From contig WHVD01000001.1 of the NCBI GenBank assembly GCA_015178975.1, positions 2,108,001 through 2,172,000 on the forward strand: DNA of 64,000 nt. Direction: 5' to 3'. The notes under the pieces were generated by a model. It was given only the letters and a program-made list of their open reading frames with translations, was not told where the DNA came from and searched no databases. Source of the DNA: Hysterangium stoloniferum (Eukaryota; Basidiomycota; Agaricomycetes; Hysterangiales; Hysterangiaceae). Numbering within the stretch: the stretch's first letter is position 1; each line of letters starts with the position of its first letter. Of the stretch, positions 26,061-62,879 are shown one piece after another. A program made the position numbers and the translations under genes.

Positions 26061-29000
26061 ATGGCATCCAGTGATACTTACAAACGTAGTGTCATATTGG
26101 GAGAGAATAATTATGAGGATTGGAGACATGATGTAATTGGTCTTTTGCGTATGGAGAACTGTCTCTCTATTGCCACTGGCAAAGAAAAACAACCTAGTGA
26201 GACTAGTTTACAGTCTGCCTGGTTGGAGCGCTCCAATAAAGCAGCTGGTATCATATGGCGCTCTCTTGGACCTACACAGCGCACCCATGTTGACATTGAT
26301 GATGGTCCTGATGATATGTGGTCTAAAATTGACAAGGCACATAATAAACAACTCCCTGCAGTTCGTTTTAGTGCCTACAATGACCTCTTTAATATTCGGA
26401 AGGAACCTGATGAATCTCTAACTTCATTAATAAGTCGTGTTGACAAGGTTTGTGCACGTGTCCAGAACTTGCGTCCAAAGGGGTACACTCTTGCCATGCT
26501 GGATGATGAGCTTGCTGCTCTCACTTTACTTCGTTCTCTGTCTGAATCTGACTCTGTGTGGACTTCATCTTTAATGATGAATACTGCTATCACATTCTCT
26601 GATGTCAAAACACACTTTGCATCACAAGAGAGTTTGCAGTCTGCCAGAAGTTTAGAGACGGCGAACAAAATTGTGTCAAAGACTTCCAACACTTCTGGTA
26701 AAGTTCCTTGCACATTCTGCAATGGTTCCACCCACACCCAAGACAATTGTTACGAGTATGCAAATGCACAGAAACAGACAAAGGCCAAAGTTGAGCAGAA
26801 GAAAAAGGAGTATAAAGAAAGAAAGACTGCTAAGGCTGACAAAGCTAATGCGTCTGACAAGGTATCAGAGGAGAAGAAACCAGAGAGTGCTGGAAATGCA
26901 AGTGTTTCTATCCCTGACTCTACCGATCCATCTTGTGCTCTCCTTGTCAATGCTAGTTCTGACTGGACTGCTGACACAGGTGCTTCTTCGCACATGACTC
27001 CCCATCGTCATTGGTTTTCAAGTTATACCCCGTTTCAAACACCTATCCAAGTTGCAAATGGACAAATAGTTATGTCTGCAGGGATAGGAGCAGTGCGGTT
27101 TAAGCCTAAAGGGAATGGAAATGTAATAATAGAGTTTGAAAGGGTTCTCCATGTTCCCCATCTCACAAGTAACCTCCTCTCCGTCTTGTATTTGACAAAG
27201 AGAAAGAATTTCCGTGTCTCTATCTTTCATTCCACCATGTCTTTCTATTTGAGAAAGGTCTTGCGTTTCACTGCCACAGTCAATGAACATAACCAGGCCT
27301 ATTTGGATGGAATGACGGTACCTATGACGGATTATGCAGGTCTTGTTACAACCTGTCCCTTGGACTCCACACTTTGGCATCGTCGCTTTAATCATCTCAA
27401 TCATGCCGATATCCAGAAGCTCCTCAAAGGTGATTTGGTTGGTGGGATAAAGATTGACTCTCACACGTCTCCTGATCCTATTTGTGAACCTTGTTTGGCT
27501 GGAAAACAGAACAGAGTGATTAATAAAATAGCAACAACACGCTATACTAAACCACTTGCACTCATTCACAGTGATGTTCATGGTCCCTTGCCTACACAAA
27601 CTGTGGAAGGGTTTCGCTACTGGATCACTTTCATTGATGATGCCTCACGCTATGCTTCGATTGCATTACTCAAAAATAAGAGTGATGCCTTTCAGGCATT
27701 TAAGCAATATAAGGCTAAAGTGGAGAACTTGCTTGGTCAGAAGATCAAGATATTCAGAGATGACAAGGGTGGAGAATATATGTCTAAGGAGTTTGATACC
27801 TTCCTTTCCACTGCTGGCATCAGCCGGCAGCATACTGTGCGGAATGAACCACATCAGAATGGGGTTGCTGAACGCTTCAACAGAACATTGGAAGAAGGGG
27901 CTACTTCAATTATGGCTGAATCCCACCTCCCTCCCTCATTCTGGGGACATGCTGTCATTGCCATTACTCATGTGCGCAACTGCTCACCTACCACTGCTCT
28001 TAAGCATTCTGTGCCTTATACTGTTTGGCATAGTAGGAAACCAGAAGTATCACATCTTAGGGTATTTGGCTGTACTGCTTATGTGCATGTACAGAAGGAT
28101 CAACGTATTGGACTTGGCTCTCATACACAGAAATGTGTCTTTATTGGATATCCTCCAGATTATAAGGGTTGGATGTTTTACAATCCCTTGACTAAGAAGA
28201 CTATTATCAGTAATAATGCTGTCTTTGATGAGAGAGTCTTACCAGGCTTGTCTAAACCTGCCATACCTTCTACTCCTACTGCTCCTGATGTTCTTCCTGA
28301 TACTCCACAATTTATTGATTTGTTTATTCCTGGACCCTCTAGGTCTATTCAGGTGGGAGCCCAGCCTAATCAGATGGGAGCTCCACAGGAACCAAATCCA
28401 GTGGGAGATGGTCAGAATAATGCTTTGCCTCCTGGTCCTAGTTCCAACTCTGATTCTAATTCTGAACATTCTGAACGTTCACCGAGTCCTCCTCCTCAAC
28501 CACGTCGCAATCCACCCAGAAACAGAGTTCCTCCTAAGCGTTTCTGGCAAGTTGACCCTGATCACATCCACAACTATAGAGAATCTACTCCTGTAGTTGA
28601 GTCCAGTGATGAGGCAGAGGATTCTCCACTACATTCTCCTCCTCCAGTTGAGTCTGAGGAAGAAGCCCTAGCTGCCAGTGAGGGAGATCTTTACATTGGT
28701 GTGGATGAAGCCTTTGAGTTTGCCTACAAGGCCAGTGCTCATGATGATGCACCGAGAACTCTCAAAGAGGCCTTACAAAGTCCTGATGCTGACAAGTGGT
28801 ATGACGCTGCATATGCAGAAATGCAATCCCTGCTTGAAAATGGCACTTTTCGCCTTGCTAAACTACCTGAGGGTCGTAAAGCTATTGGCTCTCGTTGGGT
28901 GTTTGTGATCAAGCGTAAGAAGGATGGGTCAATTGACAAGTTCAAAGCTCGTCTTGTTGCAAAAGGCTATGCACAACGACCAGGGTTTGACTTCACTGAT

Positions 29001-30305
29001 ACCTTTGCTCCTACTGCCAAATGGGCCACTTTGCGTGCTGTCCTAGCATTGGCTGCACTGGAGGACATGGAACTTGAGAGTGTAGATATCTCCTCTGCAT
29101 TCTTGAATGGTGAACTTGAAGAGGAAGTATACTTGCAGCAGCCTGAAGGTTTTCACCAAGGTGCTCGTGATGAGTTCTTACTTCTTCTAAAAGGACTATA
29201 TGGTTTACGCCAGTCACCTCGTATCTGGCACAAGAAGTTGAATGCTGTCCTGCTCAGTTTGGGTTTCAAACAAGTGCTATGCGATCATAGCATTTGGGTC
29301 TTCCAAAAGGGTGATGTCAAAGTCATTATACCAGTATTTGTAGATGACATGACTATTGCATCTAAATCCAAGGAGGCTATCAAAAAGCTCAAAGATGATC
29401 TAAAGAGCCACTTCAAATTGCATGATCTTGGTCCTACTTCTTACTTGTTAGGTGTTGGCATTGAAAGAGACAGGACAAAGCGTACTATTACTCTATCACA
29501 GCGTCAATACATCTTGGACATGTTACAGCGTTATGGTCTTGCTGACTGCAATCCCATTGGTACACCTATGATACCTAACTCAAAATTGAGTAAAGACCAG
29601 GCTCCAGTGTCTCCTGAAGAGATTGCATACATGAAGGACATTCCATACATCCATGCTGTTGGTTCTCTTATGTATTTGGCTGTTGCCACTCGTCCAGACA
29701 TTGCCTATACTGTTGGAGTATTAGCCAGATTTAATCACAATCCAGGAAAGGCTCATTGGCTAGCAGTACAACATCTCTTTCGATATCTCAAAGGCACCCT
29801 TGACTTGGGCTTGACCTTTGGCCCTAGTAATGACAGGGAATTGTTTGTGTCTTATTCAGATGCTGACCATGGAGGTGATAAGTCAACTGGAAAATCTACT
29901 GGTGCATATGTGGTTAAGATGGGTACTGGATCCATTAGCTGGCAGAGCAAACTCCAGACTATTGTAACTCTCTCTACTACTGAAGCAGAGTATATTGCAG
30001 CAGTGTCAGCTGGTCAGGAAGTGCTATGGTTGCGAAACTTATTTGAGGAATTGGGATATCCTCAAAAGACTGCATCCACTTTGTATCTTGACAACCAATC
30101 TTCTATTGCAGTTGCCAGAGATCCTGAACATCATGGCCGTATGAAGCATCTGGATTTGAGAACATATTGGTTAAGGCAGGAAGTTGATAGTGGGAAGATC
30201 AAAGTTGTTCATCTCCCTACTTTAGAGATGCCTGCTGATTTATTGACAAAACCATTGGCTAAGCCAAAGGTAGAATACTTACGAAAACTACTGGGACTAG
30301 CATAG
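26061..30305 (+). CDS. Copia Gag-Pol polyprotein (1414 aa)
   Basis: One uninterrupted frame. In order: Gag-like region (1-210) with a UBN2/retrotran_gag_2-type start; a CCHC knuckle CTFCNGSTHTQDNC (about residue 217); protease motif DTGASSHM (about 303); a GAG-pre-integrase HHCC region with LWHRRFNHLNHADI (about 440-480); integrase core with HSDVHGP, DDKGGEY and HQNGVAERFNRTLEE; reverse transcriptase with VDISSAFLNGELEEEVYLQQ and FVDDMTIAS (about 1092); RNase H with SDADHGGD and TTEAEYIA. Order PR-IN-RT-RH is diagnostic for Ty1/copia. It would act in cytoplasmic virus-like particles and the nucleus. The length is normal for the family. Confidence 0.97.
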   Translation: MASSDTYKRSVILGENNYEDWRHDVIGLLRMENCLSIATGKEKQPSETSLQSAWLERSNKAAGIIWRSLGPTQRTHVDIDDGPDDMWSKIDKAHNKQLPAVRFSAYNDLFNIRKEPDESLTSLISRVDKVCARVQNLRPKGYTLAMLDDELAALTLLRSLSESDSVWTSSLMMNTAITFSDVKTHFASQESLQSARSLETANKIVSKTSNTSGKVPCTFCNGSTHTQDNCYEYANAQKQTKAKVEQKKKEYKERKTAKADKANASDKVSEEKKPESAGNASVSIPDSTDPSCALLVNASSDWTADTGASSHMTPHRHWFSSYTPFQTPIQVANGQIVMSAGIGAVRFKPKGNGNVIIEFERVLHVPHLTSNLLSVLYLTKRKNFRVSIFHSTMSFYLRKVLRFTATVNEHNQAYLDGMTVPMTDYAGLVTTCPLDSTLWHRRFNHLNHADIQKLLKGDLVGGIKIDSHTSPDPICEPCLAGKQNRVINKIATTRYTKPLALIHSDVHGPLPTQTVEGFRYWITFIDDASRYASIALLKNKSDAFQAFKQYKAKVENLLGQKIKIFRDDKGGEYMSKEFDTFLSTAGISRQHTVRNEPHQNGVAERFNRTLEEGATSIMAESHLPPSFWGHAVIAITHVRNCSPTTALKHSVPYTVWHSRKPEVSHLRVFGCTAYVHVQKDQRIGLGSHTQKCVFIGYPPDYKGWMFYNPLTKKTIISNNAVFDERVLPGLSKPAIPSTPTAPDVLPDTPQFIDLFIPGPSRSIQVGAQPNQMGAPQEPNPVGDGQNNALPPGPSSNSDSNSEHSERSPSPPPQPRRNPPRNRVPPKRFWQVDPDHIHNYRESTPVVESSDEAEDSPLHSPPPVESEEEALAASEGDLYIGVDEAFEFAYKASAHDDAPRTLKEALQSPDADKWYDAAYAEMQSLLENGTFRLAKLPEGRKAIGSRWVFVIKRKKDGSIDKFKARLVAKGYAQRPGFDFTDTFAPTAKWATLRAVLALAALEDMELESVDISSAFLNGELEEEVYLQQPEGFHQGARDEFLLLLKGLYGLRQSPRIWHKKLNAVLLSLGFKQVLCDHSIWVFQKGDVKVIIPVFVDDMTIASKSKEAIKKLKDDLKSHFKLHDLGPTSYLLGVGIERDRTKRTITLSQRQYILDMLQRYGLADCNPIGTPMIPNSKLSKDQAPVSPEEIAYMKDIPYIHAVGSLMYLAVATRPDIAYTVGVLARFNHNPGKAHWLAVQHLFRYLKGTLDLGLTFGPSNDRELFVSYSDADHGGDKSTGKSTGAYVVKMGTGSISWQSKLQTIVTLSTTEAEYIAAVSAGQEVLWLRNLFEELGYPQKTASTLYLDNQSSIAVARDPEHHGRMKHLDLRTYWLRQEVDSGKIKVVHLPTLEMPADLLTKPLAKPKVEYLRKLLGLA

Positions 30306-42280: not shown

Positions 42281-42957
42281 TGTTACGACTGGAAATCCCG
42301 CCGGACTCTGGGCACTAACTTATATGCACCCATGCCCTATACACACCCATTATCAGTTTACCGGAATTCCCGCCGGACTCCGTACATCAGACTTGTCTAT
42401 GTTCGACTTCGTTACATTGCGTTTCAGTCACCGGAAAACCCACCAGACTCCATCTATGTCTATATCCAATCTCATCCCGTGCATCAGTGACCGGACCCCA
42501 CTCAGAAACCCGTCATCCCTCTAACAGAGCCCCATTCCCATTTTAGTCAAATGACCTGTCACAATTTGGACTCCGCTCCCACTCCATTTCCCATTATGGT
42601 TTATGATTTGTCACTATTCGGACTCTGCTCTGTTCTGTCCCATTCCTAACACCAATTTGGTGTTTACTATTCCTGTTTTATGTTTTGCTCATTTCATTTC
42701 ATTATTACTGGATTCGGTATGACATTCACTCCACGGTCTATTTAAACTGGCAGATGTTGTACATACAATCCAGTCAGAAAATTGGCTTAGATTCCCCTCA
42801 GTAATCTAATACATTTTCCGCTCTAATCCCTACTTGAAATCACACCGCTCACACTAGTCGGAGCCCATGGGCTCCGGCACAGCCTATAAGCTGAAGCCAA
42901 GTCCTACTGGATATCCCACGGGTTTCTCTGGAGACCCGCCCTGTACATATCCTAACA
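42281..42957 (+). repeat. Solo LTR of the Ty3 family at 54.8 kb (older copy), TSD ccagg
   Basis: It starts TGTTACGACTGG and ends CATATCCTAACA. It follows the 821-bp Ty3 LTR throughout but is shorter (677 bp) and diverged, with many C-to-T type differences and a TATA-region equivalent at about 42735. Perfect ccagg duplications lie at 42276-42280 and 42958-42962. It is inserted within the GC-rich repeat. It is clearly older than the intact element. Confidence 0.9.
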
Positions 42958-49118: not shown

Positions 49119-51153
49119 CCTCAGCTCGGTTTTGTCGAGTCGAATTCAATGTGTCAAAGAGTTGTCAAATATTACCTTTGATTGTTTGTGACAAAGTTGT
49201 GACTTGTGACAGTTGTGACAAATCTACATGATGAAGCTTGCACTACAATGATAATAAATGAGCTGCATACACATATGGGACACATAGCACCAGCTGCTGC
49301 AAAGTGAATGGTCGAAAATGGGGCAATTGAAGGAATAACACTAGACCACTCAAGGCCTATCGAGTTTTGCGAAGCCTGTATCAAAGGAAAGATTATTCAA
49401 GAACCAATCCCAAAAGTCCAAAAATCAGAACGAGCCAAACTTCAAGGCCAGAAGATACACACCGATGTGTGGGGGCCATCCGAAGTTCAAACCATCGGAG
49501 GTTGTAGATGGTATATATCATTTACTGATGATTTCACAAGGGAAACAAGAACCTACCTGATGAAAACGAAGGGAGAAGCATTCCAAAAGTACAAAGCATA
49601 TGAGGCATTCTTAAATCAACACAGGGACACTACAATTAAGAAGTTACAATCAGACAATGGAGGCAAATACACATCTAATGAGTTTAAGGACTATCTATCA
49701 TCATGTGGAACCCTCCAGCAATTAACTGTTCATGATACTCCCCAACAGAATGATGTCACAGAAAGACTAAATCGAACATTAGTCGAACACACCCGATCGA
49801 TGCTCATCACTGCCAATCTGCCCAAGTTCCTATGGGGCGAGTGCATACAACATGCGGTATATCTGAAGAATAGGACTGCAACATCAGCTCTCGATGGAAA
49901 AACACCATATGAGCTAGTTCACAATAAAAAGCCGAATCTAAGGCACTTACCAGAATGGGGAGAGACTGTATATGTGAGGATGGAGCCAGAGGGAGGTAAA
50001 CTAGGGCCCAAAGCAAAAGAGGGCCACTGGGTCAGGTATAGTTTTAACAGTGAAGGACACTGCATATATTGGCCAGAAAAATGAACCATGACTGTAGAGC
50101 GAAATGTGGCATTCCCCAAGCAAGCTGGGGTTCCTATACTCGTATCAGGAAGAGATCTAGAACACAAAACATACAAGAAACTTCCTCAAATGCCCACAGA
50201 TGTACCATTACCTGAATCACCTCAAGTTAGCATTCCAGAGCTACCAGAAACCACGGAATCCTTACCTCAAGAGCAATTGAGACAAAGTTCAAGAACCAGA
50301 TTTCCATCTGATTATATGCGCCGTCTCAGACAAGGGGAAGGTACCACAGGTTCTAGTCAGATTGAATTCTCTCCGGGACTGCAAGTACCAGAAGAATTCG
50401 GAAAGGCTACATGCGTTATATTAGAAGACAAAAATGGTTTTGATGAAGACTCAATTTTATGGGAAGATAGTCCAAGTGAGCCACCAATTATGGTCAATAG
50501 AAATATCTCGTATACAGATACATATAGCCCATTGGAGTGGATGAACCTTACAGATAGGATGGACAGTGAGAGATTGGAAACAATAGGTATGGTTGCAAAC
50601 CTTCAGGAAGGAGTGCCAGCTACAGTGGAAGAGGCTATGAGAGGAGACAATTGGCCATTGTGGAAGCCGGCATTTTTAAAGGAGTTGAAGGCCTTACACG
50701 ATTTAGACACCTGGGAACTCATCGATAAACCCAAAGGAGTCAATATAGTCGGTTCTAAATGGACATTAAGAATAAAACACGATACAAATGGAAAAATTAC
50801 CCCATACAAGGCACAACTCATAGCCCAAGGCTTTACACAAGTATTCGGGATGGACTATGAAGAGACGTTTTCTCCCATTGTTCATCTAGCTTCACTGAGG
50901 CTTATAACAGGCATAGCAGCTCAGAACAGCTGGCCTATAGAGCAAATGGATGTTAACAATGCATACTTAAATGCGAAGCTTACAGAAACGGTGTATATGC
51001 ACCAACCACCGGGATTTCCTCAAGGTCCAGCATCAAAAGTCCTTAAATTGAAAAAGGCCCTATATGGTTTAAAACAATCAGGTAGAGAATGGTATAAGCT
51101 ACTCAGAAAGGTGGTGAATCAAATGGGATTTACTTGCTCACTATCTGATCCAG

Positions 51154-51875
51154 TGTTACAACCGTGTCGCAACCCTATCGGTCCCGAGGTTATCGCCACT
51201 TGTCAACGTTTCAAGTCATCCTCTCGGAAACCATCGGCCCCGAAGCTGACGAATGTTTCGCGAAGATCAAACTCCATTTACGCCCACGTCAAAATAACTC
51301 GTATTGTCTGGTCAAACTTTGATACGTCCCCTTTATTATGTTGATCCGTCCAATCTTATGTTTCGCATATGTCTAGTTATATTTGTAGTCCTTGAACTAT
51401 TTCCTTTTATCGTAATCCCGCTCTCGGCTATCATTGGCCTCCGAACTAATCATAAACTTCCCGTTCCTAGTCAAGCTTATCGTTAAATACCATGTTCCGC
51501 CCTTCTCCCCATTAGTATTTTCCAGACACCTGTTACTTGTATATGAACCCGCTGTAGTTGTAGTCACTAGGCAATCAGAATATCGACTCAGAATACCCTC
51601 ATACGCCTGTATCAGTCTCATACTAAGAATCCCCCCATCCACCTTCACGTGTGCTCGCCCACTCCCGGCCCCGACCCCTTGGCCCGACGCTCGACCTGTC
51701 CTTTGATTCCGATCGGCATCATGCCAAAAGGTACTCATTAGGATTAGTCTTCGCCTGCCCGAAATTTAAGGACATCCTACGGATATTTGCGAGGGCGCAG
51801 CACATAAGCTGAAGCCAAGTCCTTCCGATCGGTCCCTGTTGGCCACCGACATTAGTCAGTTTTCAGTTCTTAACA
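51154..51875 (+). repeat. Solo LTR (722 bp) inside the copia relic, TSD tccag
   Basis: TGTTACAACCGTGTCGC to AGTTCTTAACA, with perfect tccag duplications at 51149-51153 and 51876-51880. It is the opposite-orientation partner of 2192-2914. It lies between the two RT parts of the relic and is thus a later insertion. Confidence 0.95.
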
Positions 51876-52905
51876 TCCAGCCGTATTCTACAAACGAGTG
51901 GAACACAGTATTATCATTATTGCAGTAGCCATGGATGATCTCACCATCACTGCAAATACGAACAAAGGGATAATTCAAATAAAGGAGCAATTCAAATTGC
52001 ATTTCAAAATGAAGGATATGGGTGAATTACATTGGTTACTGAATATAGAGGTCAAATATAATATAAAAGTGCATACAATCTCATTCAGGCAAACCGCATA
52101 TATCGACTTGATTATCAAATGTTTCAATTTACAAGACGCAGCCCCAATCACACTGCCTATGGATCTCAAACCATTATTATCAAAAGAACAATGTCCTACT
52201 ACACCAAAAGAACACGAAAATATGAAGAACATTCCATATCGCAAAGCCATTGGTTCACTAATGTGGGCCACAATGGGCACCAGACCAGATATTGCCTTTG
52301 CAGTATCTATTTTATCTCAATTTATGGAGAATCCAGGACAAATACATTGGGAAGCAATGAAAAGAGTACTGAAATATTTGAAGGGAACACAAGACTTCAA
52401 CTTAACATTGGGAAGAAATGAGAGTGGAATAATAGGATATACAGATACAGATTGGGGACAACAACCAGATCAACATTCAATGTCAGGCTATTGTTTTCTA
52501 TTAAATGGTGGAGCATTCTCTTGGAGTTCAAACAAACAAAGACTCATAACTTTATCTAGCACCGAGGCCAAATTCGTTGCAGCCACATATGCCATCAAAG
52601 AGGCATGCTGGATTCGCAAATTCATGAACGAAGTCTTTCATCCATTCACTAAATCAATCACACTCCATTGCGACAATCAAGCCGCTATTATCATATTGAA
52701 GAATAATAGATTTCAAGGATGAACAAAGCACATCAACATACAATACAAATTCATATACGAAATTGTAGAGCACAGCACAATTACACTCACATATTGTCCT
52801 ACCGAAGATATGACAGCAGACATATTCACCAAAGCTTTACCTCACCCAAAACTCATCTATTGTACATCAAAACTTGGTCTTATTAACACTCAACTTGAGG
52901 GGCAG

Positions 52906-53346: not shown

Positions 53347-54775
53347 TGCCTTGGCTAATACAGAATAAAGATGTATGAGACGGCGTCGTAATAAATCGAT
53401 TGGAAAAAGTAGTCTATGATTGAGATTTACTTTTCGGGCTTTATTAATTGGAATTTGTGGTCCTGCCATCCAAGCTGGCACACTCGCTTGTCATCACATT
53501 TGTCTCACCAGTCATGTATGATATAGCCATTTTGTATTTGAGTTCTGCTAAATTACACAGTGTATTGTGGACCATGCTTTCTGAGGTTAATGCATGCCAG
53601 AACCAGTGTACACCTAAACTAGCATCCTACCTATCATGTCAGAAGGTGATTCACTAACTGACACATTGATTGACAACCAAGTACTATTATTACAAGTTTA
53701 TTACCCACTTGTATATTGTGTATTACAATAAGCCAACTCATGTTATGTTTAATAAAATGCATGAAGTGGGCCCTTCTGGGGTGGCCAGGAATGCTGGAAC
53801 GCAAGCTCGTTTCACTGACGAGGAGCGCGTTAGTATGGCACGGGAGGATGTTGCCGAGGGCAGCACTGTGATGACAGGTTGGTGATGTGGCTGAGAAGTG
53901 ACACCCGGCCTGAGACTGGAGCAGTGTATTAGTGAAAAGTAAGTAACATTTTGTTATCTCTGTTGTATTAATTTCCTTACCTGGAGCGTCCCGTGGGCTT
54001 CTCTCATTAATACAAGATCAATGTCATTCATTAAATCAATAACTTAAAAAAGGTTTGCACCGTTTATCGACGGAACAACAAGTTGCTTATAGTTCTAAAA
54101 TCGTATTAGCACTAGCGGTACTTATAACTTTGCTCGTGATAGGAACCAAGCCTTCATATGCGAGTTTTGAAATTTCACAAAAACATGATTTCCACCTTGT
54201 TGTTACATAATATCCGATAGGGTCAGCACTGCCGTTCGGATTCACCGGTTGTTTTTCTATCGATAGAATGGATGACTCTCCGTAGCCCTAGAATCTCTAA
54301 ATTCTCAGTTCTAAGTGATATTGCCAGTATGCCGATGGTTAAGCGACTACAGGGAAGCTGTCATGTCACCTTTTGAAGGTGGATGATTCGTCCTAAACAA
54401 AAAATTATGAATGAGGGTCAGGCATAATTTTTGTGAGTACCTAATTTCTCAGTGTGTCATATATTACTCCATATATCCTTTTCAGTCATTTGCTTCTGCC
54501 CTGCCCCTCTGTATCCGGTCTGCAGCTGTGACTCCTGCTTTGCTCATTGCTATACCCTTTTTGTCTTAATATTTACTGGTAGGCAAATACATTATTTAAA
54601 GTTTAGTGAAATGCGTCAAACAATTTACACAAATAGATACAAAGGTTACAAACATATAGGTTTCGAATATACCATACAATGCGTGATGGGATGCTGACTC
54701 CTACTGAATACCATGGAATGGGCTGAAGTGTCGAAATCTTCTCATGACACAATTGTTACCTACAGGCTACCAGCT
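53347..54775 (+). pseudogene. Gene Y region, cassette copy 4, left part
   Basis: Diverged Y region. A frame at 53759-53885 reads PSGVARNAGTQARF, then ERVSMAREDVAEGSTVMTGW, which has counterparts at 19.82 and 35.87 kb. The membrane-segment exon is no longer readable. About 150 bp near 53570-53750 has no counterpart in other copies. The Ty3 element is inserted at cagct (54771-54775), just before the AHQREVK segment that resumes at 62880. Confidence 0.4.
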
Positions 54776-55596
54776 TGTTACGACCCGGACAAATCCCGCC
54801 GGACTCCGGGCACTAACTCGTACGCCCCCACGCGCTACAAGCACCAATCGTCTGTTTATAGGATTTCCCGCCCGGACTCCGTTACGTCAAGACTCGTTAC
54901 GTTCGACCTCATTAAGACACATATCAGTCACCGGACTTCCCCCGGACCCCGTCTCTGTCTATGTCCGTCTTCGTCCCACGCATCAGTCACCGGACCCGCT
55001 TAGAATCCCGTCACCGCTCTAATCGAGCCCCGTTCCCGTTTTAGTCAAATGACCTGTCACGATTTAGGACTCCGCTCCCGCTCCGTTTCCCGTTATGGGT
55101 TATGCTTTGTCACGATTCGGACTCCGCTCCGTTCCGTCCCGTTCCTAACACCAATTTGGTGTTTACTATTCCCGTTTTATGTTTTGCTCGTCTCGTCTCA
55201 TTATTACTGGATTCGGTATGTCATGCATTCCACGGTCTATATAAACTGGCAGATGTTGTACATACAATCCAGTCAGAAAATTAGCTTAGATTCCCCCCAG
55301 TAATCTAATACATTTTCCTCTCTAAAAACCCTACTCTCATCAGACCGCTCGCACTAGTCGGAGCCCACGGGCTCCGGCGCATCTATCTCTCTCGACTATC
55401 TCGATTCACGACTCTCGACTCACGACCTACGACTCACGACCCACGAACCCCCGCCCGGACTCCCCGGGATTCCCGTCCGCCTGTCTGAAATTGGACAACA
55501 CGATCTAGCGAGGGCGCAGCCTATAAGCTGAAGCCAAGTCCTACCGGATATCCCGCGGGTTTCTCCGGAAACCCGGCCTGAGTGTGTATCCTAACA
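54776..55596 (+). repeat. 5' LTR of the Ty3 element
   Basis: TGTTACGACCCGGAC to GTATCCTAACA. It has a TATA box TATATAAA at 55238-55245 and the block ataagctgaagccaagtcct near 55522, shared with the other LTR families here. Confidence 0.95.
55238..55245 (+). promoter_or_regulatory. TATA box in the Ty3 5' LTR
   Basis: TATATAAA within cacggtctatataaactgg; the same site is at 62516-62523 in the 3' LTR. It probably drives the genomic transcript. Confidence 0.65.
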
Positions 55597-55632
55597 GTAT
55601 TTTCTGACTAATACTCGCAGATTGTTTTCATT

Positions 55633-56925
55633 ATGCCACCAAGAAGAAGTACACGCGCACAGTCATCAATGCCTGGACCGTCGACTCTTCATTCCCTGTT
55701 AACTCTGTATACCAGTCAGACGCTTGCGAACCAGTCGGAACCCATGGAAGAAGCCCGCATCGAAGAAATCCCGGAAGACCTGGACGAATCCGAGCGTGAG
55801 GACGATTCCGTGGCCCCCGACAAGGGCAAAGGTGTCGAAATCCCTCTTGAAAATCCTCCGCCTTTTCAACGACCAAACACGAGGGATCCTACTTCTGAGT
55901 TTTTAGCAGGTACTATAGATAAATTCATGACGCACCTGCTAGAAGAACGAAAAAGAAAGGAACAAGAACCTCCACGGTCAAAAGTCAATGCTCCGGAACC
56001 CTTCACGGGTTCCAACCCAAACAAACTCTCTACTTTCCTCATGCAATGTCGCTTCAATTTCCGCGATCGCGCCGCTGCATTCTCCACGGACTCCCGAAAA
56101 GTCAACTACGCACTTTCATATTTGTCGGGATCCGCGTTGAAATGGTTCGAACCGGCTTTTAGCGGGATTACCGAGGAAGAGCCGCTCTGGCTTGAAAATT
56201 GGGAAGCTTTTGTTGAGGAGCTTGAAACCAACTTCGGCCCGTATGACCCGACAGGAGAAGCCGAGAATAGTCTCACAAATCTTCGTATGAAGGACACGCA
56301 GCGCATCACGGACTACATCGTCCAATTCAATAATCTTGCAGCTCGTTGTCAGTGGGGCGATCCCGCTCTCCGCCACCAATTCTACGCCGGTCTGCCGTCC
56401 CGCCTTAAAGACGAAGTCTCAAAAGGAGAAGATGGCAAGCCAAAAACCCTGTCCCGTATGCGCCTCAAAGCTCAAAACGCGGACGCACGTTATTGGGAAC
56501 GTCGCGCGGAAGTTGCCCGCGAGACATCCGCGGACAAAATAAATAAGTCCAAGGACAAAAACAATAACACCAATTCGTCAACCAGCAACCAGAACTCCAC
56601 GCAATCCGACAAGAAGAACGATAAAAAGTCTTCAAACAACAACAACAACAATAAGGACAATAAGGACAACAACAAGGGTCAACAGTCCGGCAAGCAAGCC
56701 GGAAAACCCGACCTCTCAGGCAAACTCGGACCTGATGGCAAATTAACTCCACAAGAAAGACAACGTCGTATGGACAACAACCTCTGTCTCTTGTGCGGGA
56801 AACCCGGTCATCGAGTCCCGGAATGTCCGCTGGCAAAAGCAAACTCTTCAAAGGGTCGAACAGCCAAGGCCTCCACGGAAACCCCGTCGAAGGACAAACC
56901 GGCTGCCGATTCGAAAAAAGAGTAA
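55633..56925 (+). CDS. Ty3 Gag (430 aa)
   Basis: Starts at the first ATG after the LTR (MPPRRSTRAQSS). A retrotrans_gag-type capsid region spans about residues 115-280 (FRDRAAAFSTDSRKVNYALS, ALKWFEPAFSG). It is followed by a long low-complexity Asn/Ser/Lys tract (about 300-355) and a CCHC zinc knuckle CLLCGKPGHRVPEC (about 387-400). The Asn tract is unusual for Gag. The end overlaps pol by about 130 nt. Known role: forms the virus-like particle and binds the RNA. Confidence 0.95.
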   Translation: MPPRRSTRAQSSMPGPSTLHSLLTLYTSQTLANQSEPMEEARIEEIPEDLDESEREDDSVAPDKGKGVEIPLENPPPFQRPNTRDPTSEFLAGTIDKFMTHLLEERKRKEQEPPRSKVNAPEPFTGSNPNKLSTFLMQCRFNFRDRAAAFSTDSRKVNYALSYLSGSALKWFEPAFSGITEEEPLWLENWEAFVEELETNFGPYDPTGEAENSLTNLRMKDTQRITDYIVQFNNLAARCQWGDPALRHQFYAGLPSRLKDEVSKGEDGKPKTLSRMRLKAQNADARYWERRAEVARETSADKINKSKDKNNNTNSSTSNQNSTQSDKKNDKKSSNNNNNNKDNKDNNKGQQSGKQAGKPDLSGKLGPDGKLTPQERQRRMDNNLCLLCGKPGHRVPECPLAKANSSKGRTAKASTETPSKDKPAADSKKE

Positions 56926-59900
56926 GCAACCCCGCGGACTCCGCGCGGGTTAGGGGTTGCGTTGCCTCTCCGCGCATTCAAGAGTTCACTCGCCTCAACG
57001 CATCCGCTCTTTCACATTCTGATGCATTTTTCATTAAACTTATGTCTAATATGCTTCCGAAATTCGTTTTTTCAGCTCTCATAGATTCCGGCTCGACTCA
57101 TTGTTTTTTAGATACAAAATTCACGCAAAAAAATTCTTTGTCAACTTATTCGATAAATCCCGTCGCTCTCCGCCTCTTCGATGGCACAAGTAATTCGGTT
57201 GTTACCCAAGCTTGTGATTTACCCATCAGTTTCCCTTGTGGAACATCTCAATTGGTCACTTTCTATGTGACCCAGTTAGACTCAAGTTGCTCGGTGGTTC
57301 TAGGACATAACTGGCTTACCCGCTACAATCCGTTGATTGACTGGATAGCTAACAGTATAACATTCCGAACTCCCGCGGCGACCGAGGAAACTGCGCCTGT
57401 CTCGGCCTCCACGGCACCCATGGCCTTCCCGGCACCTGCAGTCTCGAGGACTCCTGTGATCCCTACGGCACCCACAGCTTCCCCGGAACCCACGGCACCT
57501 CCGTCCATTTCTCTGATTAATGCTGCAGCTTTTATTAGGGCTTCAAAAATGGATGGATCCCAGGCGTTCACTATCAACTTAAAAATTGATGAAGCAACTG
57601 GACGTTTCTCAACCCCAGTATCCGAATCTGAGCAAGCTGCTGACCTAGAAGGCGTCCCGGAGAAATACCATGACTTCGCGGATGTTTTTAGCAAGCGAAA
57701 AGCTGACCGGCTTCCGCCTCACAGAGAATACGACTTAAAAATCGATCTTGAAGATGGCGCCCAGCCACCCCTAGGACATATTTACCCGCTTTCGTCCACG
57801 GAACTATCCGCAATCCGTGATTTCCTGGATGAACATTTGTCCATAGGTTTCATTCGACCCTCAAAGTCTCCTTTTGGAGCACCTGTTTTGTTTGTCAGAA
57901 AAAAGGATGGATCCCTTCGACTATGTGTTGATTTTAGAGGACTCAATGCTGTCACCAAAAAGGACAAATATCCACTCCCACTTATATCTGACCTGCTCGA
58001 TGCTCCGCGGAATGCCCGGATTTACACCAAAATAGATCTCAAGCATGCCTATCATTTGGTCCGGATTGCCGCGGGCGATGAATGGAAAACCACTTTTAGA
58101 ACCCGCTATGGGGCTTTCGAGTGGTTGGTCATCCCTTTTGGACTCACTAATGCCCCGTCTGTTTTTCAGCGTTTTATCAACGACATTTTCTCCGACATGC
58201 TCGATGTATGCGTCATTGTTTACTTGGACGACATTCTTATCTACTCCGAGAATCCCGCGGAACACGACAAACAAGTCCGTGAGGTTCTCCGGAGGCTCAG
58301 ACAACATGGTTTATTCGCAAATGGTAAAAAATGTACTTTTGACACGGACTCCGTGGAATACCTAGGTTTCATGATGGGACCCGATGGACTCCGCATGGAC
58401 GAAACTAAAGTGCAAGTCATCAAAGACTGGCCCGAACCCCGAAAAGTTAAAGATATCCAATCCTTCCTCGGCTTTGCCAATTTTTATAGACGTTTTATCC
58501 GTGGATATTCCGACATCACGGTACCCCTTACCCGTCTTACGCGTAAGGGTACTCCGTGGAACTTTAACGATAAGTGTCAAAAAGCTTTCAATCTTTTAAA
58601 AAATTCTTTTTCCACAGCTCCTATTCTGTCGCATTGGAAACCGGACTTCCCGCTCATTGTTGAAACGGACGCCTCCGACTATGCACTTGGAGCCATTCTC
58701 TCTATCCAGGACTCCGACGGAGAAGTTCACCCCGTGGCTTTTCTGTCCCGGACTTTTACCGGAGCAGAGCTCAACTACGACGTTCATGATAAAGAACTTC
58801 TGGCAATCTTTTCAGCTTTCAAAGCGTGGCGACACTATTTGGAAGGTTCAGGAGCTCCTATTGACGTTGTAACAGATCACAAAAACCTGGAATACTTTTC
58901 TACCACAAAACTCTTGACCCGTCGGCAGGCCCGCTGGTCTGAATATCTCTCCGCCTTCAACATGATTATCCGTTTTCGACCCGGCCGTCTCGGCGGCAAA
59001 CCCGACGCTTTAACTAGACGATGGGACGTCTATCCTAAAGAGGGGAGCAACGACTATGCAACGGTAAATCCGCACAACCTGAAACCTATCTTCACGAATC
59101 AACAACTTACCGCATCGGTCCGTGCAACTTTCCTCGTCAATCCCATTGTCCGTGGAATTATCATTATGGATATCGAAAAGCTACATCAAGATATTCTATC
59201 GGCAATTCCGCTAGACCCAGTTACTAAAGCTCATCTGGACAATCCCGTGGACCCCGATCAACCTCGGTGGTCTCTTGATCAACATGGTTTCATTAGACTT
59301 GACGATAGGATCTATGTACCGGACTCCGACGGCCTCCGCCTCAGGATCCTTCAATACAAACATGATCATCCACTCTCAGGACACTTCGGGTACAACAAGA
59401 CTCTATCATTAATAAGAAGAGAATATACTTGGCCCGGACTCCGTGGATTCGTTAAGCACTATTGTAAATCTTGCACTACTTGTCCCCGCTCGAAATCTCA
59501 GCGACACAAGCCATACGGCCTTTTGAAACAACTCCCGGTACCGGAACACCCGTGGAATTCTATATCTATGGATTTCATTGAACACCTGCCGGATTCCGAA
59601 GGCTTTTCCGCTATCCTAGTCGTTGTTGACAGATTCTCAAAACAAGGTATATTCATCCCTACTTATGATACAATTACGTCCGTGCAGTTAGCGGAACTTT
59701 TTATTATCCACGTATTTTCCAAGCACGGAGTTCCGTCCCACGTGACTTCCGATCGAGGATCAGAGTTCGTGTCTCACTTCTTTAGATCCCTCGGAAAATC
59801 CTTGGACATGACATTACATTTCACGTCCGGACATCACCCGGAAGGTGACGGACAAACCGAACGCGTCAACCAGACATTGGAACAATACCTCCGCGTATAT

Positions 59901-60650
59901 TGCAACTATCAACAGGACAATTGGAAAACCTTGTTACCACTTGCAGAATTTGCTTACAACAATGCACCCTCGGCCACTACTGGCGTTTCCCCGTTCTTTG
60001 CAAATAAAGGATATAATCCAAATATTACAGTACATCCAGAACGAAATCTCGCCTCTGTTCGTGCTCAAGAGTTCACCACGGACCTCCACGAGCTCCACGA
60101 GGAACTCCGGACTGCAATATTGTCCGCCCAAGAGCAATACCAACATTCAGCGGACAAACACCGGATCCCGCCACCAAACTTCAAGATTGGCGACCGTGTT
60201 TATGTCAAAGCTCAATTCTTCCGGACTACCCGTCCATCAAAGAAGCTTGCTGAAAAATATTTAGGTCCTTTTGAAATTATCGCACAAGTAGGTTCAGTTT
60301 CTTGGACTCTACGGCTTCCGGATAGCATGCGCGCGGTACACCCGGTATTTCATGTCTCTATGCTAGAACCTTGTACTGCTAACACTATCCCGGATCGCGT
60401 GCAATCTCCGCCTCCTCCTGTCGTCATTGACGGAGAACCCGAGTTTGAAATCTCTCAGATTTTAGATTCAAAAATTGACAAGCGTCGACGCACTTGTAAA
60501 CTGCTTTACTTGGTCAAGTGGGCGGGTTACGAGGGCACCGATGAAGAAACCTCATGGATTTTGGCCACGGAACTTGGTAATGCCACGGAAATTGTTACTG
60601 ACTTTCATACAGCTTACCCACTCAAACCTGGACCATTATCGTCTCTCTGA
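56793..60650 (+). CDS. Ty3 Pol with chromodomain (open frame of 1285 codons)
   Basis: Overlaps the gag end in the -1 frame, so expression by programmed -1 frameshift is likely, as is known in the family; an A6 run lies just before the gag stop. Domains: protease with LIDSGSTHCFLD (about residue 96), RT with VYLDDILIYSEN (about 477), RNase H with TDASDYALGA (about 625), integrase zinc region HDHPLSGHFGYNK (about 857) and core with TSDRGSEFVS and HHPEGDGQTERVNQTLEQYL. A C-terminal chromodomain (about 1217-1268) reads VKWAGYEGTDEETSWI. Order PR-RT-RH-IN-chromodomain defines chromoviruses; the chromodomain targets heterochromatin in known members. Confidence 0.96.
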   Translation: MRETRSSSPGMSAGKSKLFKGSNSQGLHGNPVEGQTGCRFEKRVSNPADSARVRGCVASPRIQEFTRLNASALSHSDAFFIKLMSNMLPKFVFSALIDSGSTHCFLDTKFTQKNSLSTYSINPVALRLFDGTSNSVVTQACDLPISFPCGTSQLVTFYVTQLDSSCSVVLGHNWLTRYNPLIDWIANSITFRTPAATEETAPVSASTAPMAFPAPAVSRTPVIPTAPTASPEPTAPPSISLINAAAFIRASKMDGSQAFTINLKIDEATGRFSTPVSESEQAADLEGVPEKYHDFADVFSKRKADRLPPHREYDLKIDLEDGAQPPLGHIYPLSSTELSAIRDFLDEHLSIGFIRPSKSPFGAPVLFVRKKDGSLRLCVDFRGLNAVTKKDKYPLPLISDLLDAPRNARIYTKIDLKHAYHLVRIAAGDEWKTTFRTRYGAFEWLVIPFGLTNAPSVFQRFINDIFSDMLDVCVIVYLDDILIYSENPAEHDKQVREVLRRLRQHGLFANGKKCTFDTDSVEYLGFMMGPDGLRMDETKVQVIKDWPEPRKVKDIQSFLGFANFYRRFIRGYSDITVPLTRLTRKGTPWNFNDKCQKAFNLLKNSFSTAPILSHWKPDFPLIVETDASDYALGAILSIQDSDGEVHPVAFLSRTFTGAELNYDVHDKELLAIFSAFKAWRHYLEGSGAPIDVVTDHKNLEYFSTTKLLTRRQARWSEYLSAFNMIIRFRPGRLGGKPDALTRRWDVYPKEGSNDYATVNPHNLKPIFTNQQLTASVRATFLVNPIVRGIIIMDIEKLHQDILSAIPLDPVTKAHLDNPVDPDQPRWSLDQHGFIRLDDRIYVPDSDGLRLRILQYKHDHPLSGHFGYNKTLSLIRREYTWPGLRGFVKHYCKSCTTCPRSKSQRHKPYGLLKQLPVPEHPWNSISMDFIEHLPDSEGFSAILVVVDRFSKQGIFIPTYDTITSVQLAELFIIHVFSKHGVPSHVTSDRGSEFVSHFFRSLGKSLDMTLHFTSGHHPEGDGQTERVNQTLEQYLRVYCNYQQDNWKTLLPLAEFAYNNAPSATTGVSPFFANKGYNPNITVHPERNLASVRAQEFTTDLHELHEELRTAILSAQEQYQHSADKHRIPPPNFKIGDRVYVKAQFFRTTRPSKKLAEKYLGPFEIIAQVGSVSWTLRLPDSMRAVHPVFHVSMLEPCTANTIPDRVQSPPPPVVIDGEPEFEISQILDSKIDKRRRTCKLLYLVKWAGYEGTDEETSWILATELGNATEIVTDFHTAYPLKPGPLSSL

Positions 60651-60860
60651 CCGCACTCCGCGGACCCCGTGTTACGTTTGGACTCATTTTCACTATTCCC
60701 TGTCGCCCTATGTCTCTCTTTGCTTTTACAGGTTCTGACATGTCTTGTCAAGTCTTTAAGCGGATTCCCCGCGGACTTTGGCTTTGACTTTTAATTTTTA
60801 TGTTTTTCTTTCACGCTTTGCTTTTATAATTCAAATTATTTTTTATTCTACACTACTTTT

Positions 60861-61843
60861 TCAGTCTACATTTATGGGACTGTTCTTTTTCCCTGCTTCC
60901 TCAGCTATCTCCTCTGGGAGCTCCGCGACTTCCGCGGCAACCCCGTCCTCATCCGATCCGGCATCCTCGGAACTCCCAACTTGCGGCTCTTCAAAGACAT
61001 AGCCGCCATACTCCGCCAGGAACTTCCAAAACTCCTCGCGGAGTCCGGACAGCTCCTTTGCCACCACAATTTGGACCTTGTTGCTCTTCCGGAGCAACTC
61101 GTTTTGGGCCTCGATGCCCTCGGCGATCCGTCCAAGGACCTCGTCCAACCCGGACAACCCGTCCGTCCCGCTTATGTCTCGCGCCCCGGATCCCGTGGCC
61201 TGCTCGTGCACAAGCGAGCACCTCGCCTTGAGGTGCGCGCATTGATAACATCCCGGCCCCCGGCCGGCCTTTCGGTTGCATTCCGTGTTCCGGTCGTTGC
61301 AACCGGAACACCGCGGCTCGTTCCGCGTCGGAAGACGGACTGGCGCCGCCTTCCTTGCCTTCTGTTGAGTTGGTCAGTCTCCGCGGGTATTCCATGGACG
61401 TGAGGCCTACCTTTTGGGGGCTCTCTGGCTCCCCCTCGGACTCGGACTCCACCTCTGTCGCTTTGCGCTGAAGATCACAAGTCAGTAAACAATCGACAAG
61501 TGAATTTGGGACTTACTTTTCCCGCAACAATGGCGGCCCTCTCCGCGGCCAACCGGGCTTTCTCCGCAGCCACCCGGGCGGTCTCCGCGGCCACTCGCGC
61601 AGCCTCCTCCGCCTCACGTTCCCTCTCCTTTGCGGCCTCTTCCTCCGCGGCCAATGCTTCCTGGTACTCCTTGTCCAGGGCCTCCTCAGCCTCCCTCGCC
61701 TCTCTCTCTGCTGCTTCACGAAGCTGGCGCTGCTCTTCTCGCCGCGCCAACAATTGGGCCGCCGTCCACGGCGCCCGATATGGAGTGCCCGTGGAGGGCC
61801 CTGCTGTCGGCATTGGTTTGCGTGGTGTTGGTTTTGGTCCCAT
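60861..61843 (-). CDS. Antisense accessory gene of the Ty3 element: coiled-coil, Zn2Cys6-type protein, 3 exons
   Basis: Minus strand between pol and the 3' LTR. Exon 1 (61843-61517) starts MGPKPTPRKPMP and forms a long Ala/Glu/Arg coiled coil (REEQRQLREAAEREAREAEE). Intron 1 (61516-61468, 49 bp) has GTAAGT, TACTGAC-like branch and CAG. Exon 2 is 61467-61411. Intron 2 (61410-61362, 49 bp) has GTAGGC, CTGAC and CAG. Exon 3 (61361-60861) carries CSGCNDRNTEC and GCYQCAHLKARC, i.e. C-x2-C-x6-C-x9-C-x2-C-x6-C, the Gal4 Zn2Cys6 spacing (residues ~146-176). A second helical segment (ELLRKSNKVQIVVAKELSGL) and an acidic tail follow. All three joins are phase 0 and the frame stays open for 294 codons, strong evidence for a real gene. 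Function unknown; it could bind DNA or regulate the element (inference). Confidence 0.75.
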
Positions 61844-62040
61844 AGTGACGAAGATGGGGGTAATAAAGAAGAAGAAATTTCTATTTTTTCAATTTTTTAT
61901 ATAGGCTCGTCGCGTTTGAACCTTACCTTCCAGATCACATGACTCTTTGACACATACGTGTAACCGACATGACTTTTGACACATGCGCGTAGCCGACAAG
62001 AACCTTATTTAGGTCTAGAGCCTCTTTGGGACTTCGGCAT

Positions 62041-62050
62041 AAAGGGAGGA
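62041..62050 (+). other. Polypurine tract of the Ty3 element
   Basis: aaagggagga, three bases before the 3' LTR; likely plus-strand primer. Confidence 0.7.
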
Positions 62051-62053
62051 TAC

Positions 62054-62874
62054 TGTTACGACCCGGACAAATCCCGCCGGACTCCGGGCACTAACTCGTA
62101 CGCCCCCACGCGCTACAAGCACCAATCGTCTGTTTATAGGATTTCCCGCCCGGACTCCGTTACGTCAAGACTCGTTACGTTCGACCTCATTAAGACACAT
62201 ATCAGTCACCGGACTTCCCCCGGACCCCGTCTCTGTCTATGTCCGTCTTCGTCCCACGCATCAGTCACCGGACCCGCTTAGAATCCCGTCACCGCTCTAA
62301 TCGAGCCCCGTTCCCGTTTTAGTCAAATGACCTGTCACGATTTAGGACTCCGCTCCCGCTCCGTTTCCCGTTATGGGTTATGCTTTGTCACGATTCGGAC
62401 TCCGCTCCGTTCCGTCCCGTTCCTAACACCAATTTGGTGTTTACTATTCCCGTTTTATGTTTTGCTCGTCTCGTCTCATTATTACTGGATTCGGTATGTC
62501 ATGCATTCCACGGTCTATATAAACTGGCAGATGTTGTACATACAATCCAGTCAGAAAATTAGCTTAGATTCCCCCCAGTAATCTAATACATTTTCCTCTC
62601 TAAAAACCCTACTCTCATCAGACCGCTCGCACTAGTCGGAGCCCACGGGCTCCGGCGCATCTATCTCTCTCGACTATCTCGATTCACGACTCTCGACTCA
62701 CGACCTACGACTCACGACCCACGAACCCCCGCCCGGACTCCCCGGGATTCCCGTCCGCCTGTCTGAAATTGGACAACACGATCTAGCGAGGGCGCAGCCT
62801 ATAAGCTGAAGCCAAGTCCTACCGGATATCCCGCGGGTTTCTCCGGAAACCCGGCCTGAGTGTGTATCCTAACA
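62054..62874 (+). repeat. 3' LTR of the Ty3 element
   Basis: Same 821 bp as the 5' LTR; followed by TSD cagct. Confidence 0.95.
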
Positions 62875-62879
62875 CAGCT

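Follow-up and report, generated by a model that had tools for sequence, protein, structure and literature searches.

Overall organization of the locus

A 64,000-nucleotide stretch of the Hysterangium stoloniferum genome (GenBank assembly GCA_015178975.1, contig WHVD01000001.1, positions 2,108,001–2,172,000; hereafter, the window) contains a complete Ty3 chromovirus, a retrotransposon bounded by two long terminal repeats (LTRs). Between the pol frame and the 3′ LTR of this element, a three-exon gene is located on the minus strand, antisense to pol. The gene comprises 294 codons and a stop codon; both exon junctions (exons of 327, 57 and 501 bp) are in phase 0, and a branch-like CTGAC site is present in each intron. 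The three exons, two 49-bp GT-AG introns and 294 codons had been proposed from the letters of the window alone (the original prediction), with coordinates that proved to be exact. The parts of the gene, in order of transcription, are:

61517–61843, minus strand: exon 1, 327 bp, 109 codons, with an Ala/Glu/Arg-rich stretch at residues 29–108
61468–61516, minus strand: intron 1, 49 bp, GTAAGT..CTGAC..CAG
61411–61467, minus strand: exon 2, 57 bp, 19 codons
61362–61410, minus strand: intron 2, 49 bp, GTAGGC..CTGACC..CAG
60861–61361, minus strand: exon 3, 501 bp, 166 codons and stop, with a six-cysteine cluster, a stretch of many invariant positions and an acidic tail ending in SPINVD
61218–61310, minus strand: six-cysteine cluster C-x2-C-x6-C-x9-C-x2-C-x6-C, residues 146–176, with sub-threshold Zn_clus matches

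Judged by the comparison of its copies, the antisense gene is a protein-coding, intron-bearing gene that is under selection and belongs to the element family. It is not a chance frame, because the splice sites are kept while the introns drift, differences concentrate at third codon positions, the ratio of nonsynonymous to synonymous changes (dN/dS) is low and the cluster cysteines are nearly invariant, as detailed below.

Conservation of the spliced reading frame

The genome searched comprises 111 Mb in 554 contigs, and all comparisons between copies were made within it. The best 40 of 733 candidate copies of the gene region are 97–100% identical. The alignment contains 80 sequences, the window and 79 loci (L009–L087); the diverged subset consists of 25 copies (L048–L072), for which identities are given as medians against the window.

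Both introns are well defined across the 80 copies. The donor is GT in 159 of 160 introns (GC in the other) and the acceptor is AG in all 160, while a [CT]TGAC site lies 8–25 bases before the 3′ end of every first intron and of 73 of the 80 second introns. Intron lengths range from 48 to 72 bp (intron 1) and from 47 to 52 bp (intron 2). In the diverged copies, identity is 79.6% for intron 1 and 75.5% for intron 2, and 82.6% (n=23), 93.0% and 87.6% for exons 1, 2 and 3, respectively. No intronless (processed) copy is found among the 80, consistent with the earlier argument that introns in an antisense gene are compatible with retrotransposition; their persistence is explained by the sense RNA being the template of transposition. 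A single-frame read from exon 2 into exon 3, with a stop, was considered as an intronless copy in L088–L090 and was dropped, since exon 2 lies separately upstream in another frame and the intron is therefore present.

In exon 1, 23 of 31 length changes are multiples of three; the corresponding counts are 0 of 2 for exon 2 and 12 of 55 for exon 3. Of the 43 non-triplet changes in exon 3, 38 fall within the final 9 bp, where they shift the stop codon by one or two residues and give the endings SPINVD, SPIEVDE and SPIEIDE, and five lie elsewhere. Of the 80 copies, 57 retain the complete spliced frame, namely 37 of the 40 close and 20 of the 40 diverged ones, and the acidic tail terminates in SPINVD in 51 of these 57. 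The older copies (L048–L107) carry many changes of Arg to Gln, Trp, His or Cys and many TGA stops, the mark of CpG transitions; the host therefore seems to methylate or mutate the family.

For dN/dS estimates, sequences with an internal stop or a frameshift were removed (55 of 80 passed, 25 were dropped), and the set used consists of 30 sequences (435 pairs), the window and 29 copies with dS above 0.05 to it. The median dN/dS is 0.21 (range 0.13–0.46) over those 350 of the 435 pairs whose dS exceeds 0.1, a value that may be slightly lowered since the filter prefers intact frames. The ratio is 0.20 for exon 3 taken by itself (374 pairs) and 0.11 for the zinc region (336 pairs). Differences from the window at codon positions 1, 2 and 3 number 108, 159 and 365 in exon 1 (third position, 365 of 632), 5, 14 and 34 in exon 2, and 196, 205 and 630 in exon 3 (third position, 630 of 1031). 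The bias is also present in all 25 copies L048–L072 before filtering, with identities of 91.9, 91.3 and 76.3% at the three positions. As a control, sense-strand frames give apparent dN/dS values of 1.25–1.43 in two of three registers; the third register, which mirrors the antisense codons, gives 0.32 and 0.26, but contains 2–5 stops per copy over exon 3.

Cys is retained in 479 of 480 aligned cluster codons. The full six-cysteine pattern is read through at the protein level in 71 of the 80 copies, the rest being eight frame-disrupted copies and L051, in which one Cys is replaced by Arg. The original prediction had staked its case on purifying selection among copies and on the conservation of the frame and the six cysteines among related elements; within this genome, the intact frames (57 of 80), the cysteine codons and the dN/dS values all agree with it.

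The antisense gene is linked to a Ty3 chromovirus

The assignment of the element to the Ty3 chromoviruses is based on its gag and pol domain matches, from protease to chromodomain. The order protease, reverse transcriptase, RNase H and integrase with a C-terminal chromodomain, the two LTRs and the short target duplication are those of the group. The LTRs are identical over 821 bp, and the young age originally given to the element is upheld. The principal features are:

54776–62874, plus strand: complete LTR retrotransposon, defined by the LTR pair and the CAGCT duplication
54776–55596, plus strand: 5′ LTR, 821 bp, TGTTACG...CTAACA, TATATAA at 55238, 100% identical to the 3′ LTR
55633–56925, plus strand: gag, 430 amino acids (Retrotrans_gag 2.9e-14, Ty3_capsid 3.5e-08)
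56793–60650, plus strand: pol frame with protease, reverse transcriptase, RNase H, integrase, Tf2-1-like SH3 domain and chromodomain (RVT_1 1.4e-36, rve 2.5e-10, SH3_Tf2-1 1.4e-20, Chromo 2.6e-06)
62054–62874, plus strand: 3′ LTR, 821 bp, TATATAA at 62516

The 5-bp target duplication CAGCT is found at 54771–54775 and 62875–62879, and matching 5-bp flanks occur in five of the seven other copies having two measured LTRs (a full pair is lacking in three of ten long stretches).

The association between gene and element was assessed in both directions. In a search with the pol end (151 residues), the gene lies 3′ of pol on the opposite strand within 2 kb in 130 of the best 150 of 3135 candidates, and on the same strand in none. 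This corresponds to the aORF-3R arrangement, in which most copies have an antisense open reading frame (ORF) placed after pol and before the 3′ LTR. In a search with exon 3, pol is listed beside the gene in 115 of the best 150 of 1079 candidates (81–100% identity), and the spacing between pol and gene at the places from this search is 633–811 bp. The antisense protein evolves faster than the pol end (83–91% versus 94–99% identity at five places, C224, C68, C290, C125 and C57).

The gene was also matched in all 20 of a set of more distant relatives (L088–L107), of which 18 retain the conserved block described below and 17 an LTR piece. Pol is within reach in six of the 20, in the usual arrangement in five, while L097 has a pol piece on the other side. 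The identity of exon 3 to the window is 55–77% in the 13 relatives that were aligned. In seven (L088–L090, L094, L100, L101 and L104), the LTR piece is ~90–94% and the promoter block 92–97% identical to the window, whereas the exon-3 protein is merely ~55–74% identical; such close LTRs beside a diverged protein suggest recombination and mosaic elements.

Several contigs start or end within or near the element. The assembly therefore seems to break there, and copy counts are lower bounds.

Two further observations concern expression and priming of the element. Gag and pol overlap by 133 bp (56793–56925) in different registers, with pol in the −1 frame relative to gag, which suggests ribosomal frameshifting. 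The sequence ATTTTCTGACT just 3′ of the 5′ LTR (55599–55609) is an exact 11-base complement of AGTCAGAAAAT in the LTR (55271–55281, and 62549–62559 in the 3′ copy), 33 bases past the start of the TATATAA box, an arrangement that we take to reflect self-priming of reverse transcription of the Tf1/sushi type.

Features of the predicted protein

The N-terminal part of the predicted protein contains an 80-residue Ala/Glu/Arg-rich stretch (residues 29–108) without proline. The original prediction had described it as a long coiled coil; the long proline-free stretch stands, but the heptad pattern is weak, with 13 of 36 A/V/I/L/M/W residues at a/d positions in the best register. Because of these weak heptads, a charged single helix appears as likely as a coiled coil. 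A K-R-K-x(16)-K-K-A-R-K stretch, which runs from the end of exon 1 through exon 2 into exon 3, resembles a bipartite nuclear localization signal (NLS). In an alignment of 26 exon-3 proteins, many positions are invariant between exon-3 positions 76 and 117. The best conserved ten-residue windows of the protein are at residues 111–130 and 171–180.

The exact C-x2-C-x6-C-x9-C-x2-C-x6-C pattern proposed earlier is confirmed at residues 146–176. In the 26 exon-3 proteins, five of its six cysteines are invariant and the other is nearly invariant. A search of the whole window in six frames with the looser pattern C-x2-C-x6-C-x5-12-C-x2-C-x6-9-C gave no second occurrence. Zn2Cys6 clusters (PF00172) have the spacing C-x2-C-x6-C-x5-12-C-x2-C-x6-8-C, a range into which the present cluster fits. 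The basic half of the motif, however, stands second, whereas the CxxCRxxKxKC half comes first in Zn2Cys6 proteins. The label "Gal4-type" given in the original prediction is therefore only partly right and not upheld in that form, since the basic half is misplaced and the Zn_clus matches stay below the 21-bit cut-off.

Of the 26 exon-3 proteins, 21 gave sub-threshold Zn_clus matches, the best with E 0.03. When ten proteins were scanned singly, nine gave weak matches, eight of which place the first half of the cluster on profile positions 16–34, while one is colinear. An alignment with the halves swapped beats the colinear fit in 25 of 25 rows against GAL4 and in 23 of 25 against LAC9 (the 26 rows minus L051, whose motif is lost). 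The cluster may thus be Zn2Cys6-like with its two pseudo-symmetric halves reversed, which is offered as a lead only because the scores are low. Isolated halves of the cluster gave no Pfam match, being too short to judge.

No match to a known protein family above cut-off was obtained in the Pfam scans or the structure search. Among Pfam matches up to E 10, neither Transposase_28 (PF04195, the TRP28 family) nor the basic leucine zipper (bZIP) family is present; the match to AvrD (best E 0.0027, 17.6 bits, cut-off 25) and other sub-threshold matches were taken as chance. Eight stretches in IMG/VR fit a pattern, and none of them encoded a relative. The genome has 76 listed PF00172 matches, none within 2 kb of the compared places of the antisense gene; these matches, like the style of the introns, are in keeping with a fungal genome. 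On contigs C56, C115, C85, C37, C309 and C550, at least two Zn_clus matches lie ~105–126 bp apart, repeatedly so along C56; these places read as a separate family of multi-cluster proteins.

A conserved block and candidate regulatory sites

The region between the antisense gene and the 3′ LTR, together with the LTRs, contains the following candidate regulatory features:

61844–62053, minus strand: 210-bp conserved block, with a putative antisense promoter and a purine-rich stretch adjoining the LTR
61895–61903, minus strand: TATA-like box TATATAAAA, ~50–60 bp upstream of the antisense ATG
61946–62001, no strand assigned: two direct repeats of 27 bp inside the block, 85% alike, 29 bp from start to start, candidate binding sites
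62078–62404, no strand assigned: three CGGACTCCG (CGG-N3-CCG) palindromes in the 3′ LTR at 62078, 62151 and 62396, before the TATATAA at 62516, candidate zinc-cluster sites
54800, 54873 and 55118: the same CGGACTCCG palindromes in the 5′ LTR

The block has a median identity of 94.6% in 22 diverged copies, compared with the values of below 80% given above for the introns in 25. Its conservation also exceeds that of the third codon positions and of the LTR pieces found in the more distant relatives, making it the best kept of the segments compared. Because a block containing a TATA box is better conserved than any of these, the antisense gene is probably transcribed from a separate promoter there, as Grande gene23 is (PMC7264820).

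The palindrome CGGACTCCG and its complement CGGAGTCCG occur eight times per element, one LTR being counted, whereas 200 order-3 simulations gave 0.72 on average and at most 4; they occur three times per LTR, whereas 500 simulations gave 0.22 on average and at most 2; these enrichment figures are descriptive, since the word was chosen after the sequence was seen. Two occurrences of CGGACTCCG or its complement are found in the remaining 54.8 kb of the window. Among six LTR starts that are ~75% identical, the two sites covered differ (by changes other than CpG transitions) in 1 of 108 cells, versus 219 of 1020 flanking cells.

Proposed role and alternatives

Taken together, these features suggest an accessory antisense gene for a nuclear DNA-binding protein that modulates element transcription, a reading to which we give an even chance. 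According to this model, the antisense gene that a fungal Ty3 chromovirus family carries between pol and the 3′ LTR is an accessory gene, which would be transcribed from its own TATA promoter in the block between the ATG and the LTR. Two splicing events would yield a protein of ~294 residues with, in order, a charged helical N-terminus, a bipartite NLS-like stretch, the six-cysteine cluster, a second helical stretch and an acidic tail. The zinc cluster would be Zn2Cys6-like with swapped halves. The protein would enter the nucleus and bind DNA, with the repeats of the block and the CGG-N3-CCG palindromes of U3 as candidate sites, and the bound protein would adjust element transcription, as does HBZ, encoded on the antisense strand of human T-cell leukemia virus type 1 (HTLV-1). 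Transcription, splicing, nuclear entry, zinc binding, DNA binding and regulation are all steps that we infer from the sequence, and regulation of the element's own LTRs would be one for which the palindromes provide circumstantial and mixed evidence. A more specific version would make the gene the chromovirus' own HBZ, a spliced, half-swapped Zn2Cys6 regulator that binds the U3 CGG-N3-CCG sites and the promoter repeats as a feedback switch acting in trans over more than 100 copies; we regard it as tentative and rather unlikely.

Several results weigh against such a DNA-binding regulator. The Zn_clus matches score 7.3–12.8 bits in the scans that gave bit scores. Searches of solved structures gave no match for the zinc fragment and six weak matches for the exon-3 profile, mostly talin-type helices at E 0.08 or worse, with no zinc-cluster relative in either, and the fold predicted for exon 3 from the single sequence was unusable, with a predicted local distance difference test score (pLDDT) of 53. 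Scored over ten-residue windows, the beginning of the cluster region (residues 141–160) is conserved only about as well as the average, at 0.918 compared with a mean of 0.93. The candidate sites are likewise ambiguous: equally conserved nine-base windows of the LTR number 20 of 185 and 33 of 185 for the two tested sites, CGGACTCCG is absent from the conserved block, and it is not confined to promoters, occurring four times in the pol region and once, as the reverse complement, in the antisense gene. CGG-N5-CCG is nearly as common in the element (26 versus 28 for CGG-N3-CCG), so that part of the excess of the latter may be word usage. Finally, 20 of the best 150 pol matches have no listed gene alongside; these are possibly truncated copies, contig ends, deletions or places whose gene falls outside the matches listed.

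The protein might instead serve transposition as a nuclear accessory factor that escorts or tethers the pre-integration complex, the NLS-like stretch mediating import and the cluster contacting target DNA or chromatin. Both of these features are present, and plant antisense ORFs have been proposed to act in import or in the retrotransposition process (PMC7264820). We nevertheless consider this unlikely: one would expect a factor required in stoichiometric quantity to be encoded on the sense strand together with gag-pol, and the separate conserved TATA block suggests separate control. The chromodomain is the usual targeting device of the chromovirus clade, and pol already has one. It is less likely still that the protein counters host silencing (RNA interference, DNA methylation or heterochromatin) in trans, for example through charged helices that sequester host factors. 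Such a role would suit the CpG-type changes of the older copies and the retention of the protein while copies decay, but there is no above-cut-off family match to any known protein, and the near-invariant six cysteines suit metal and DNA binding better.

The antisense RNA, rather than the protein, might be what matters, forming a duplex with the 3′ portion of the genomic RNA and limiting copy number, with the reading frame as a by-product. Control of this kind is discussed for LTR elements (PMC7264820), and the promoter block is the best conserved segment compared; the low dN/dS, the codon-position bias, the triplet length changes of exon 1 and the retained cysteines would all be left unexplained, making this disfavored and quite improbable, although RNA and protein roles may coexist. 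A captured host gene hitch-hiking without use would account for the introns, which are typical of genomic rather than processed capture. The same adjoining block in 18 of the 20 distant relatives, the divergence of exon 3 where measured in them and the purifying selection stand against it, and within this genome the possibility is very slight. A chance open frame, for example the mirror of a sense-strand gene, finds some basis in the opposite sense-strand frames of 134 and 140 amino acids and the low apparent dN/dS of the mirror register. This explanation is ruled out for practical purposes by the sense-frame controls, namely the stops of the mirror and the values above 1 of the other sense frames, and by splice sites that are kept in the antisense reading. 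The regulator of element transcription remains the preferred reading.

Comparison with known antisense genes of LTR elements

The closest parallel in arrangement is the aORF-3R of plants (maize Grande gene23, rice RIRE2 and Silene Retand TRP28), which likewise is antisense, located between pol and the 3′ LTR and present in most copies (PMC11963269, PMC7264820). An own promoter and a nuclear protein are reported for gene23 (PMC7264820), and DNA binding is predicted for TRP28 (PMC11963269, PMC7264820). Antisense ORFs at this position are a standard feature of the plant Retand lineage (PMC11963269); the statement of the original prediction that they are rare in Ty3 elements thus fits the fungal literature found, but not plants. 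Retand is a non-chromovirus plant lineage, whereas the present element is a fungal chromovirus, whose antisense protein has a six-cysteine cluster and no TRP28 match and whose gene contains two short introns. The word "intron" is absent from the main text of one review (PMC7264820).

In HTLV-1, HBZ is produced from a spliced antisense transcript as a nuclear protein (PMC10186651). The HTLV antisense proteins act on LTR transcription: APH-3 and APH-4 suppress transcription from the 5′ LTR, and HBZ turns off CREB-dependent activation (PMC10186651, PMC3736048). The present gene is similar in its antisense position at the 3′ end of an LTR element, its predicted spliced form and its predicted nuclear product. 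HBZ differs in being a retroviral bZIP protein transcribed from the LTR itself, whereas here the putative promoter adjoins the LTR and the domain resembles a zinc cluster; the two proteins are not claimed to be homologous. Gal4-type Zn2Cys6 proteins (PF00172) share with the present protein a compatible six-cysteine spacing, fungal origin, one basic half and the CGG palindromes, found here in the LTR; they differ in that the Pfam cut-off is missed, the halves appear swapped and the loop has nine residues. With the self-priming fungal chromoviruses of the Tf1/sushi type, the element shares the chromodomain, the Tf2-1-like SH3 domain and the 11-base complement; Tf1 and sushi elements are not known to carry an antisense gene.

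The words "antisense", "zinc" and "zn2" do not occur in the main text of a survey of fungal LTR elements (PMC3248453), and no antisense accessory gene in a fungal LTR element was found in the titles and abstract starts of the open-license papers listed, so an unpublished or differently named case may exist. An accessory gene on the opposite strand of a brown alga DNA transposon (PMC12477816) was set aside, as it is no parallel in an LTR element. We rate the present case as a fungal chromovirus version of a known arrangement, with introns and a zinc-cluster-like protein. A third case beside retroviruses and plant Retand would show that LTR elements repeatedly evolve antisense accessory genes at their 3′ ends. 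Here the introns mark the strand of the gene unmistakably and the record of selection is strong. The function of plant-type antisense ORFs, an open question, becomes testable in fungi grown in the laboratory, with candidate target sites supplied.

Other elements in the window

A relic LTR of the same family is present at 42281–42957 in two pieces, with ~84–87% identity to the LTR of the element, and LTR-like pieces of 76 bp (~80% identity) are found at 2240–2315 and 51752–51827. An intact 1414-residue frame at 26061–30305 resembles, by reading of its translation, a Ty1/Copia polyprotein, and a second Copia-like frame at 49308–52722 is broken.
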